Of a stretch of 64,000 bases of DNA, positions 30,819-35,194 are shown piece after piece. This DNA comes from Aminobacter sp. AP02. GTDB lineage: Bacteria > Pseudomonadota > Alphaproteobacteria > Rhizobiales > Rhizobiaceae. The stretch spans positions 62,001 through 126,000 of the forward strand of contig NZ_QGGX01000011.1 in NCBI RefSeq assembly GCF_003148805.1. Direction: 5' to 3'. The first letter of the stretch is position 1, and every line of letters begins with the position of its first letter. Both the position numbers and the translations under genes were made by a program. The notes below the pieces were generated by a model that saw nothing but the letters and a program-made list of their open reading frames with translations, was not told the origin of the DNA and ran no database searches.

Positions 30819-31745
30819 TCATCCTTTCATCAGGCGTGTGACGTGGGCGGCGACCGAAAAGGCCAACCCGTGAAGATCGTAGCCGCCTTCCAGCAGGCTG
30901 ATAAGGCGATTGCCACAATGGTGTGCAGCACTATCCATCAATTGACCCGTCGCCCAGTCGAAATCGTCTTCCGTCAGATTGATCTCGGCGAGCGGGTCGC
31001 GATGATGCGCGTCGAAGCCGGCCGAAATGATGATGAGGTCGGGCGCAAATCGGTCGAGTGCCGGCAAAACGCGCGAGCGCATCGCCTCGCGGAAATGCTC
31101 GCTGCCGGTATTGGGGGCGAGCGGGGCGTTGACGATATTGCCCGCGCCGGTCTCGCTTTTGGCGCCGGTACCGGGAAACAGCGGCATCTGGTGGGTGGAG
31201 CAATAGAGCACCGACTTATCGTCCCAGAAAATGTCCTGGGTGCCGTTGCCGTGATGCACGTCCCAATCGACGATCGCCACCCGTTCGGCGCCGTGCTTGC
31301 GCTGGGCATAGCGCGCGGCGATCGCTGCATTGTTGAACAGGCAAAAGCCCATCGCCGCGGTCTTTTCGGCATGATGGCCCGGTGGACGCGAGGCAACGAA
31401 GACATTGCTGATCTTGCCTGAGAAGACATCGTCGACGGCGGCGTTGGCAGCGCCGATCGCGGTGACCGCCGCCTGCCAGCTTTTCGGGCTCAGCATCGTG
31501 TCGCCGTCGATGGTGGCCAAACCCTCCCTGGGCACTTGCCGGCGAACATTTTCGACAAATTTTTCGGGGTGAACGTAGAGAATCGTCTGCTCGTCGCCTT
31601 CTGGCGCTTCGGCGCGATCGAGCATTTCGAAAGGCTCGTCGTTGAGCGCGCGCTCGATGGCGCGCAGCCTGTCGGGCCGCTCGGGATGCCCGGGCGTCGT
31701 CAGATGCTCCAGATAGATGGGATGGGAATAGAGCCGCGTGGTCAT
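30819..31745 (-). CDS. Histone-deacetylase-like amidohydrolase (class II, AcuC/HdaH type)
   Basis: 309-residue zinc hydrolase related to histone deacetylases and acetylpolyamine amidohydrolases. The catalytic pieces are all present: the tandem His in ASRPPGHHAEKTAAMG, the zinc Asp/His in AIVDWDVHHGNGTQDIF, the Asp in ISAGFDAHHRDPL, and the LEGGYDL end motif. The substrate may be acetyl-lysine, an acetylpolyamine or another amide. ATG 31745 (MTTRLYSHPIYLEH) is preferred over one 48 bases upstream because homologues begin this way and GGTGGG precedes it. Linkage to xseB is conserved in Rhizobiales as far as I recall. Confidence 0.93.
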   Translation of the reverse strand: MTTRLYSHPIYLEHLTTPGHPERPDRLRAIERALNDEPFEMLDRAEAPEGDEQTILYVHPEKFVENVRRQVPREGLATIDGDTMLSPKSWQAAVTAIGAANAAVDDVFSGKISNVFVASRPPGHHAEKTAAMGFCLFNNAAIAARYAQRKHGAERVAIVDWDVHHGNGTQDIFWDDKSVLYCSTHQMPLFPGTGAKSETGAGNIVNAPLAPNTGSEHFREAMRSRVLPALDRFAPDLIIISAGFDAHHRDPLAEINLTEDDFDWATGQLMDSAAHHCGNRLISLLEGGYDLHGLAFSVAAHVTRLMKG

Positions 31746-31899: not shown

Positions 31900-32511
31900 T
31901 CAACTGGCGCGCTTGCCGTCCACAAGTAGCCCTTCCATGAGCCCGCGGAAAGCCTTCACTGCCTTCTTCGACGTGGCGCCGGGGTCATCGGAATTGGCGA
32001 TCCACTGGGCGGCATAAAGCGAGGCGCCGCTGATCAGCCGCGCCATGGCCTCAGGGTCGATGTCGCGTATGACGCCCTCCTCCTTCAGCGCGGCAAGGTT
32101 CCTCGTTATGGCCGAAATACAGGCGTTGGCGTTAGGCCATTGCGCCGGATCGCCGAGGACCGCCGGTCCGTCGCGGAGGACGATGCGTTGGATCTCCGGC
32201 TCCAGCGCCATTTCAACGTAGCCGATGTTTTCGTCTAGGAAGCCCTGCCAGCGAGTCTTGGCCTTGGCCGAGATCGCGTCGAGGCGCGACGACATCTCTT
32301 GGTCGATCTGGGCGAGTACCGACTCGAACAGTCCCTTCTTGTCACCAAAGTGATGGTACAGCGCACCGCGCGTGAGCCCTGCCTCGGCAGTGAAATCGTC
32401 CATCGAGGCGTTGGTATAGCCCACCGTCGCGAATGCCTTGCGACCGGCCGCAATCAGCTTGGCACGCGTTTCGGCAATCATCTCGCTACGGGTTTTGTGC
32501 GCGGTCTTCAT
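31900..32511 (-). CDS. TetR family transcriptional regulator
   Basis: 203-residue repressor. The N-terminal helix-turn-helix domain reads TRAKLIAAGRKAFATVGY, then SMDDFTAEAGLTRGALYHHF (about residues 37-56), then GDKKGLFESV, the standard TetR signature. The C-terminal ligand-binding half is not recognisable beyond the fold. It is divergent from two MFS transporter genes, and the 154-base gap carries four palindromes that are the obvious operators. The expected circuit is repression of itself and of the exporters, relieved by a substrate of the pumps. Start is ATG 32511. Confidence 0.94.
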   Translation of the reverse strand: MKTAHKTRSEMIAETRAKLIAAGRKAFATVGYTNASMDDFTAEAGLTRGALYHHFGDKKGLFESVLAQIDQEMSSRLDAISAKAKTRWQGFLDENIGYVEMALEPEIQRIVLRDGPAVLGDPAQWPNANACISAITRNLAALKEEGVIRDIDPEAMARLISGASLYAAQWIANSDDPGATSKKAVKAFRGLMEGLLVDGKRAS

Positions 32512-32573
32512 CGTTCATTCCCTACCGCGCCGTCCTCACATACGACACGTATCTTTTTTTACATACGACACGT

Positions 32574-32602
32574 ATGGTAATTGACATACGTAGCGTATGC
32601 AA
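32574..32602 (-). promoter_or_regulatory. Predicted promoter of the TetR gene
   Basis: On the minus strand TTGCAT (32602-32597) and TACCAT (32579-32574) are spaced by 17 bases. Operator 3 fills the spacer and operator 2 overlaps the -10 box, so a bound repressor would block it. Four of six bases fit at the -10. Confidence 0.4.
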
Positions 32603-32609
32603 TTATTTA
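32581..32609 (+). promoter_or_regulatory. Predicted promoter of the MFS pair
   Basis: A perfect -35 TTGACA (32581-32586) is followed after 17 bases by TATTTA (32604-32609), a weak -10. Operator 3 sits in the spacer. The start codon of the first transporter lies 57 bases downstream, with operator 4 in the leader. Confidence 0.4.
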
Positions 32610-32665
32610 CTTCGCATACGCCACGTATGTAAGTGGCGCACCCTCAAGTTTCCAGGAGTGCTCCA

Positions 32666-33886
32666 ATGCACAATCCTTATGGTGACATATTCAGAGTTCC
32701 CGGGACCAAAGGCTTCGCAGCGGCGGCCTTCGTCGCGCGCTTGCCGATCGCCATGGCTCCCATCGGCATCGTCGCCATGCTGTCGCAGACGCACGGCCAA
32801 TACTGGCTCGCCGGCGCGGTCGCGGCCACCTTCGCCCTGACCAATGCCTTTGCCGCCCCTCAGATCTCGCGCTGGATCGACCGACACGGCCAGACTGCCG
32901 TGGCAGTGCCCACCACGGTCATCTCCGTCATCGCCTTCGCCATGTTGCTCATTGCGACCCGCTATGCCTGGCCCAGCTGGACGCTGTTCGTCTCGGCTTT
33001 CCTGGCGGCGGCCATGCCAAGCATCCCCGCAATGGTGCGGGCGCGCTGGACCGAAATCTTCCGCGACCGTCCGGAACTCAATACCGCCTTCGCCTTTGAA
33101 TCGGTCGCCGACGAAATGGTCTACATTGCCGGTGCCTCGCTTTCGGTCGGCCTGAGCGTCGCGTTCTTCCCGGAAGCCGGAATGCTGGCGAGCACGCTAT
33201 TCCTGGCGCTGGGCATGGCAGCTTTCATCCTGCAACGGTCGAGCGAACCCAAGGTCAGGACGCCGGGCCTTGCAGGCGCCGGCTCGGCGATCATGTTGCG
33301 GCCTGTCCAGATCATAACGCTGGCCCTCGTCTTCGTGGGCTTCATCTTCGCCACAGCAGAGGTGGGCGCCGTAGCGATCACCAAGGAACTCGGCCAGCCG
33401 ACCGCCGCCAGTCTCGTCATTGGCGTCTACGCCGCCGGTTCCCTCGTCGTCGGCCTGATTGTGGGTGCATTGAACCTGCGAGCACCGAAGCAACGCCTGC
33501 TCGCCATCGCGATCGCCATAGCGGCACTGACCACACTGCCGTTGCTGGTCGCCAACACTGTGCCCTTGCTCGCGCTCGCCATCTTCTTCAGCGGGGTGGC
33601 GATCTCGCCCACCTTCATCATGGCCTTCGGCCTCATCGAGCGACGCGTGCCCGAAGCCATGCTGACCGAGGGCATCACCTGGGTGATGGCCGGCATCGGC
33701 ATCGGCATGGCACTGGGCGCATTCGTGGCTGGTTGGGTCGTTGACAATTTTGGCGCACAAAACGGCTTCTGGGTGTCCGTGGCCGCAGGCACGATCTCCT
33801 TCGTTATCGTCCTGCTGGGTCAGAAGGCGCTTGCCGGCGAGCAGGAAAGCGAATTACTGCAAGCTACTCCGCAAGCAGCGGAATGA
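32666..33886 (+). CDS. MFS transporter, probable drug/small-molecule exporter (first of a tandem pair)
   Basis: 406-residue inner-membrane permease with about twelve hydrophobic segments. FAAPQISRWIDRHGQTAV after helix 2 is the loop 2-3 region of MFS antiporters (D-R-x-G core). The start is ATG 32666 (MHNPYGDIF), seven bases after CCAGGAGTG. The TetR control region directly upstream argues for an exporter of a toxic compound, but no substrate can be named. The next gene is a close paralogue (shared MLS-TH-YWLAGAVAATFA and GIGIGMALG stretches), so the pair arose by tandem duplication. The protein style resembles actinobacterial MFS exporters. Confidence 0.9.
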   Translation: MHNPYGDIFRVPGTKGFAAAAFVARLPIAMAPIGIVAMLSQTHGQYWLAGAVAATFALTNAFAAPQISRWIDRHGQTAVAVPTTVISVIAFAMLLIATRYAWPSWTLFVSAFLAAAMPSIPAMVRARWTEIFRDRPELNTAFAFESVADEMVYIAGASLSVGLSVAFFPEAGMLASTLFLALGMAAFILQRSSEPKVRTPGLAGAGSAIMLRPVQIITLALVFVGFIFATAEVGAVAITKELGQPTAASLVIGVYAAGSLVVGLIVGALNLRAPKQRLLAIAIAIAALTTLPLLVANTVPLLALAIFFSGVAISPTFIMAFGLIERRVPEAMLTEGITWVMAGIGIGMALGAFVAGWVVDNFGAQNGFWVSVAAGTISFVIVLLGQKALAGEQESELLQATPQAAE

Positions 33887-33918
33887 CACCCGCAAGATTA
33901 CAGCAAGCGCTCCCGCTG

Positions 33919-33942
33919 CGAGCCGCCGCTTCAGGCGGCTCG
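33919..33942 (+). other. Hairpin between the two MFS genes
   Basis: CGAGCCGCC (33919-33927) pairs with GGCGGCTCG (33934-33942) around a six-base loop, 33 bases after the first MFS stop and 44 before the second start. There is no T run, so it may lower expression of the second gene or protect the first mRNA rather than end transcription. Confidence 0.5.
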
Positions 33943-33985
33943 ACTGCCTTCGAAATCTCAGTTACTTCTGTCCCCGGTGACATCA

Positions 33986-35194
33986 ATGCGTAATCCATAC
34001 ATCGAAATCTTCACCGCGCCAGGCGCCAAGGCCTTTTCGTCTGCCGGCTTCATAGCGCGCCTGCCGCTGGCCATGATCACGCTCGGCATCGTCACGATGC
34101 TGTCGGAGACGCATGGAGAGTACTGGCTCGCCGGCGCGGTTGCGGCGACCTTCGCTTTTGCCAACGCGCTCATTGCACCCCAGGTATCGCGGCTCGTCGA
34201 CCGCTACGGGCAGCGCCGCATTCTCATCCCCGGCACCATTGTCGCCGTCTCCGCCTTGAGCGGGCTGATGCTAGCCACGCACTACTCGGCACCCAACTGG
34301 ACGCTGTTCGTGTTTGCCGTGCTGGCCGGCACCATGCCCAGCATGAGCGCATTCGTTCGTGCGCGCTGGACCGAGATTTATCGCGGCTCCTCGAAGCTGC
34401 ACACCGCCTTCGCATTCGAATCGGTCGTCGACGAAGTCATCTTCATGACAGGCCCGATCGTCGCCATTGGCCTCAGCGTCGGCGTTTTCCCTGAAGCAGG
34501 ACCACTTGTCGCCACCATGCTGCTCGCCTTCGGCAACTTGCTGTTTGCAGCACAACGCTCGACGGAGCCTCCCATTCACGCCCAGGACATCAGCGGCGGA
34601 AGTTCTGTGATTCGTCTCGGCTCGATGCAGATCCTGGTACTGACGCTGGTTGCCATCGGTGCGATCTTCGGTACCGCCGAAGTGACGGCCGTTGCCTTCG
34701 CCGAAGCCCAGGGCGACAAGGCTGCCGCGGGCTTTGCGCTGTCGGCCTACGCCGCAGGCTCGCTCATCGCCGGGCTTGCCTTCGGTGCGCTCAAACTGAA
34801 GATTCCGCTGCCGAGGCAACTGCTGCTGGCTATCACGCTCGCCGCACTCACCACCTTGCCCTTGCTGATGGTCGCAAACATCCCGACGCTCGCCGTGGTC
34901 CTGTTCGTTGCCGGCGTCGCCGTCTCGCCGACCATCATCATCTCGATGGCATTGGTGGAGCAGTTGGTTCCTTCGTCAAAGCTCACCGAAGGCATGACCT
35001 GGGCGATCACCGGCATCGGCATCGGCATGGCGCTGGGATCGTCGGCGTCGGGGTGGGTCATCGACGAGTTCGGCGCCACCAGCGGCTTTTTCATTTCGAT
35101 GCTTGCCGGTCTGATGGCCTTGCTCACCACTCTGCTGGGCCAGGGCAATCTTCTGCGGTCGGCACGCGGCTTGGCTGCGGTCCCCGCCGAATGA
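33986..35194 (+). CDS. MFS transporter, second of a tandem pair
   Basis: 402-residue permease, paralogue of the preceding gene along its whole length: MRNPYIEIFTAPGAKAF against MHNPYGDIFRVPGTKGF, RLPLAMITLGIVTMLSETHG, IAPQVSRLVDRYGQRR and TWAITGIGIGMALGS in the same places. I start at ATG 33986 by matching its paralogue; GGTGA is five bases upstream, and a GTG at 33977 is the alternative. About half of the residues look identical by eye. It probably shares the TetR-controlled promoter 1.4 kb upstream. Two similar pumps may form a heteromer or differ in substrate. Confidence 0.9.
   Translation: MRNPYIEIFTAPGAKAFSSAGFIARLPLAMITLGIVTMLSETHGEYWLAGAVAATFAFANALIAPQVSRLVDRYGQRRILIPGTIVAVSALSGLMLATHYSAPNWTLFVFAVLAGTMPSMSAFVRARWTEIYRGSSKLHTAFAFESVVDEVIFMTGPIVAIGLSVGVFPEAGPLVATMLLAFGNLLFAAQRSTEPPIHAQDISGGSSVIRLGSMQILVLTLVAIGAIFGTAEVTAVAFAEAQGDKAAAGFALSAYAAGSLIAGLAFGALKLKIPLPRQLLLAITLAALTTLPLLMVANIPTLAVVLFVAGVAVSPTIIISMALVEQLVPSSKLTEGMTWAITGIGIGMALGSSASGWVIDEFGATSGFFISMLAGLMALLTTLLGQGNLLRSARGLAAVPAE

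Follow-up and report, generated by a model that had tools for sequence, protein, structure and literature searches.

The window analysed here is a stretch of 64,000 nucleotides from Aminobacter sp. AP02, in which a gene for a TetR-family repressor lies divergent from two tandem MFS transporter genes. The product of the tetR gene (31900–32511, minus strand) contains a TetR_N helix-turn-helix domain scoring above cut-off (PF00440, E 1.7e-13) and a TetR_C_41 domain (PF21351, E 7e-40); it resembles the repressor DitR and has a cysteine at position 131 and an asparagine at position 95. On the plus strand, MFS1 (32666–33886) encodes a protein that shares 48% identity with the MFS transporter of the DitR-type locus L218, and MFS2 (33986–35194) encodes a tandem paralogue 53% identical to MFS1. 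A strong, G+C-rich stem-loop without a clear T run occupies positions 33919–33942 (plus strand) of the gap between the two transporter genes (−24.5 kcal/mol for 33905–33960, z −2.5) and could dampen read-through into MFS2. Downstream of tetR lies an apparently ordinary gene of the histone deacetylase family (30819–31745, minus strand; PF00850).

The 154-bp region between tetR and MFS1 holds four palindromes of the form CATACG-N3-CGTATG, assigned to neither strand and named D, C, B and A in order from the tetR side towards the MFS side. Sites C (32562–32576), B (32585–32599) and A (32615–32629) match the motif perfectly, and site D (CATACGACACGTATC, 32539–32553) departs from it by one mismatch, at its last base. 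The centres, at 32546, 32569, 32592 and 32622, are separated by 23, 23 and 30 bp. Coordinates and motif matches thus bear out the sequence-only reading as to the number of palindromes, their centres and spacings, and the single imperfect copy; its description of them as evenly spaced holds for the first two intervals and fails for the last. None of 20,000 dinucleotide shuffles of the intergenic region yielded three perfect 6-3-6 palindromes (shuffle mean 0.04), and none reached even two copies of the motif at up to one mismatch (shuffle mean 0.002 vs four observed). Nor is the motif common elsewhere, as a genome-wide scan established: the 5.6-Mb genome contains exactly three perfect matches, all at the tetR/MFS locus. 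Four further matches with at most one mismatch were considered as regulon members and rejected, since all of them lie inside long ORFs.

A simple sigma-70 consensus scan of the region found no promoter. Cross-species conservation nevertheless supports two overlapping divergent promoters, whose elements are predictions. The putative MFS promoter consists of a −35 box TTGACA (32581–32586, plus strand), which overlaps site B by two bases and is conserved in homologues, and, after a 17-nt spacer, a predicted −10 box TATTTA (32604–32609, plus strand), for which the homologue consensus at the same offset is TAT(C/T)T. Read on the opposite strand, the homologue columns give TTGCAT-17-TAATAT for tetR; the corresponding predicted elements in the window are TTGCAT (−35; 32597–32602, minus strand) and TACCAT (−10; 32574–32579, minus strand). 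The latter overlaps the right arm of site C, and this accounts for the frequent replacement of the final G of this site by A. Of 131 assigned homologues, 128 have a TTGACA that overlaps site B, a count helped by the assignment rule, which favours a B preceded by TTGAC. An independent column count anchored on the B-A pair alone, covering the 65 loci with a 30-bp B-A spacing, finds the first five positions of TTGACA invariant and the sixth conserved in 64 of 65.

Relative to these predicted promoters, site C lies just upstream of the MFS −35 box and over the tetR −10 box and start, site B lies in the −35/−10 spacer of both promoters, site A lies over the MFS transcription start, and site D falls in the tetR 5′ leader. 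That the sites cover both divergent promoters, as had been proposed, is upheld for these predicted promoters by their conserved position in homologues and by a published footprint of the homologue DitR.

The array recurs in related genomes. Homologues were collected by protein, not by motif, and gave 138 distinct upstream regions, of which 131 have B and A in register, 115 have C and 14 have D (at up to two mismatches). The usual layout is C-23-B-~30-A, and a divergent MFS gene is seen in homologous loci too. The C-B interval equals 23 bp in 93 of 98 MFS-linked loci; the B-A interval is 28–31 bp in 104 of 106, with a full range of 24 to 36 across homologues, and the D-C interval is 21–24 bp. 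In the 65 loci with a 30-bp B-A spacing both B and A have nearly invariant arms, and most central bases drift. Judged by this distribution, the array is a module that is both old and conserved. Three sites are the rule in this subfamily and four amount to one extra, so that the earlier view of four sites as exceptional for the TetR family does not stand. Four Variovorax MFS-linked loci (L073, L081, L083 and L088) have only two sites, 22–23 bp apart, in intergenic regions of 72–83 bp, shorter than those of the rhizobial loci.

Loci with D belong mostly to one Aminobacter-like clade. A tandem second MFS gene is present in only 9 of 80 relatives (3-kb flanks), and these are the Aminobacter-like loci that carry D; because the nine loci are close relatives, MFS2 and D probably reflect one lineage event and not a repeated association. 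In four Aminobacter-like loci (L013, L015, L016 and L090) C has decayed and D persists at a distance of 46 bp from B, which suggests operator turnover.

A further line of evidence is co-occurrence with the regulator. The paired motif is present in 28 of 200 genomes of the family, and all 28 fall within the 69 that carry the TetR (hypergeometric p ~1e-15, an optimistic value that ignores shared ancestry). Across the phylum, TTGACATACG-N3-CGTATG is present in 22 of 398 genomes, again all within the 38 that carry the TetR (p ~3e-26 by the same test, likewise optimistic in ignoring kinship). The motif, its register, its conservation and its co-occurrence with the regulator are the direct results of this analysis. 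Together with the conserved position of the sites and the DitR footprint, this co-occurrence supports the attribution of the sites to the adjacent TetR.

The closest characterized counterpart is the DitR/mfsBC system of Stenotrophomonas maltophilia, in which a diamide-responsive TetR repressor is encoded divergently from the mfsBC operon (PMC9342713). DitR represses mfsBC and is released by diamide through Cys92 and Cys127. Its footprints cover three boxes of the form CATAC-N5-GTATG, of which Box IIa (CATACGCAGTGCATG) lies directly upstream of −35, Box IIb (CATACGACGCGTATG) in the interval from −35 to −10 and Box I (CATACGCTCTGTATG) over +1 (PMC9342713). The window locus shares with it a tetR divergent from tandem MFS genes of the MfsB type, and its sites C, B and A correspond in motif and position to Boxes IIa, IIb and I, respectively. 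The spacings agree as well, being 23 and 30 in the window vs 23 and 31 as inferred from the published DitR coordinates (PMC9342713). The published mfsBC −35/−10 assignment, GATTAT/TGTAGG with a 20-nt spacer (PMC9342713), differs from the −35 inferred here (TTGACA). The DitR-type locus L218 has a box identical to DitR Box I over 22 bases and encodes a TetR 52% identical to that of the window. Two features set the window apart from DitR/mfsBC, namely the fourth site, D, on the tetR side, and Asn at position 95 in place of the sensor Cys92. We class the window locus as a DitR/mfsBC-like switch on the strength of these similarities, DitR-like and not DitR in the sensing sense, because the counterpart of Cys92 is Asn. 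The kind of system is already known; what is new here is the four-site, one-cysteine variant.

Two other relatives are more distant or less informative. The closest solved structure by sequence, PDB 2hyt, is a TetR-family regulator (phmmer E 7e-53, residues 5–198) and a sequence relative only; the molecule name of the entry carries no function, and over the part that was compared the L218 product matches 2hyt in sequence. Rv0078 (EthR2) of Mycobacterium tuberculosis is likewise encoded divergently from its target, with overlapping divergent promoters, and its DNA contacts Thr47, Arg48 and Tyr52 are found at the same positions in the window TetR; its operator is a different, single 21-bp element bound by two staggered dimers, and its target Rv0077c is a different gene (PMC6016246). 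The literature on the motif, on multiple TetR operators, on Mesorhizobium TetR and on RidA/YjgF regulators provided nothing closer than DitR, on which one paper was found.

The sensor cysteines vary among homologues. DitR positions were mapped onto the homologue columns by way of L218. On this mapping, 137 of the 138 aligned homologues, the window protein among them, have Cys131, which corresponds to DitR Cys127, and 40 of 138 have Cys at position 95, which corresponds to Cys92. The second cysteine of MFS-linked homologues is at position 95 in 40 and at position 78 in 47, and is at neither in 24, which include the clade of the window; the RidA-linked clade described below has only Cys131. A DitR-style two-cysteine switch is thus unlikely in the window protein, which may respond through a single cysteine or to a ligand. 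The inducer may differ from that of DitR, because one of its two sensor cysteines is missing.

In our opinion, the palindromes are very probably operators of the adjacent DitR-like repressor. Binding, repression and diamide release are known for DitR; for the window TetR we infer binding, autoregulation, a role for D and an inducer. One repressor dimer would bind per site. Occupied, site A would cover the MFS transcription start, site B would place a dimer in the −35/−10 spacer shared by the overlapping promoters, and site C would place one on the −10 and start of tetR, upstream of the MFS −35; RNA polymerase would be blocked at both promoters, so that the exporter genes would be repressed and the regulator would repress its own gene. 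The protein would be released by an inducer, which may be an electrophile or a thiol oxidant sensed close to Cys131. Site D would carry occupancy into the tetR leader, and its simplest role would be tighter autoregulation in the Aminobacter-like lineage.

It had also been proposed that the array is cooperative, with dimers on neighbouring sites touching one another and setting a sharp induction threshold. The near-constant C-B interval, the narrow D-C interval and the retention of D at 46 bp, i.e., 2 × 23, from B where C has decayed are all consistent with such an arrangement, and two dimers of the distant homologue Rv0078 do bind cooperatively on one operator (PMC6016246). The sites bound by Rv0078, however, overlap and are staggered by 7 bp within 21 bp, a different geometry (PMC6016246). 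Furthermore, the 24-to-36-bp range of the B-A interval tells against a rigid lattice, and the fixed C-B interval may come from promoter geometry. Neither 23 bp (2.2 turns) nor 30 bp (2.9 turns) amounts to a whole number of helical turns, and neighbours at these distances would sit on different faces. We consider cooperative loading unlikely, and one operator per promoter element is the simpler reading. The number of operators does not by itself say much about cooperativity, because most sites follow promoter geometry.

Site D may, alternatively, be a relic or a neutral duplicate that does nothing by itself. None of the 14 D copies is perfect, most relatives do without D, and in the four loci with a decayed C, D may merely have replaced it. 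Yet D is retained in the Aminobacter-like loci read, even where C has decayed, and the copy in the window is only one base off the motif; we find a functionless D doubtful. It is very improbable that the palindromes serve a different, unrelated regulator or represent terminators or general repeats: a terminator-like match does overlap site B, but within the genome the sites are confined to this locus, the array occurs, among the genomes sampled, only in those with this TetR, and it is the arms that are conserved, the central bases being mostly free.

Candidate operators of the same kind are not confined to exporter genes. Homologues at about 50–63% identity have the same array facing a gene of the RidA family (PF01042), and their TetRs form a clade apart from those linked to MFS genes (support values of 0.92 and 0.88 in a FastTree tree rooted at the midpoint). 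The literature on RidA/YjgF regulators contained no report of this branch that we could find. At one further locus (L213) a homologous TetR faces a gene for a CurA-type curcumin reductase (NF058644), with degenerate sites. RidA genes preceded by between one and three sites, but with no tetR detected beside them, occur in six genomes. One of them (L158) has three sites and no tetR by tblastn; L190 and L191 have three sites each, L169 and L189 two each and L167 one, and for these five the absence of tetR refers to a strict-threshold search with few candidates scored per genome, which a diverged tetR could escape. Such RidA genes are possible trans targets. A RidA array in the window genome was rejected, the best RidA relative there having 37% identity and the genome no second motif locus.

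We give about an even chance to a broader reading, in which the operator code CATACG-N3-CGTATG, in the layout C-23-B-~30-A, would be common to two sister TetR clades across Proteobacteria, of which one controls MFS exporters and the other RidA-family genes. Some genomes would have lost the RidA-linked tetR but kept its sites, and through these the MFS-linked TetR would act in trans on a RidA gene. Taken by itself, the locus in the window is rather ordinary. The present comparison ties DitR, a repressor that has been footprinted but seldom followed up, to an operator layout that is widespread and almost invariant, and the motif predicts targets of DitR-like repressors in many genomes. If the broader reading is true, an exporter and a hydrolase of reactive intermediates would form one stress regulon.
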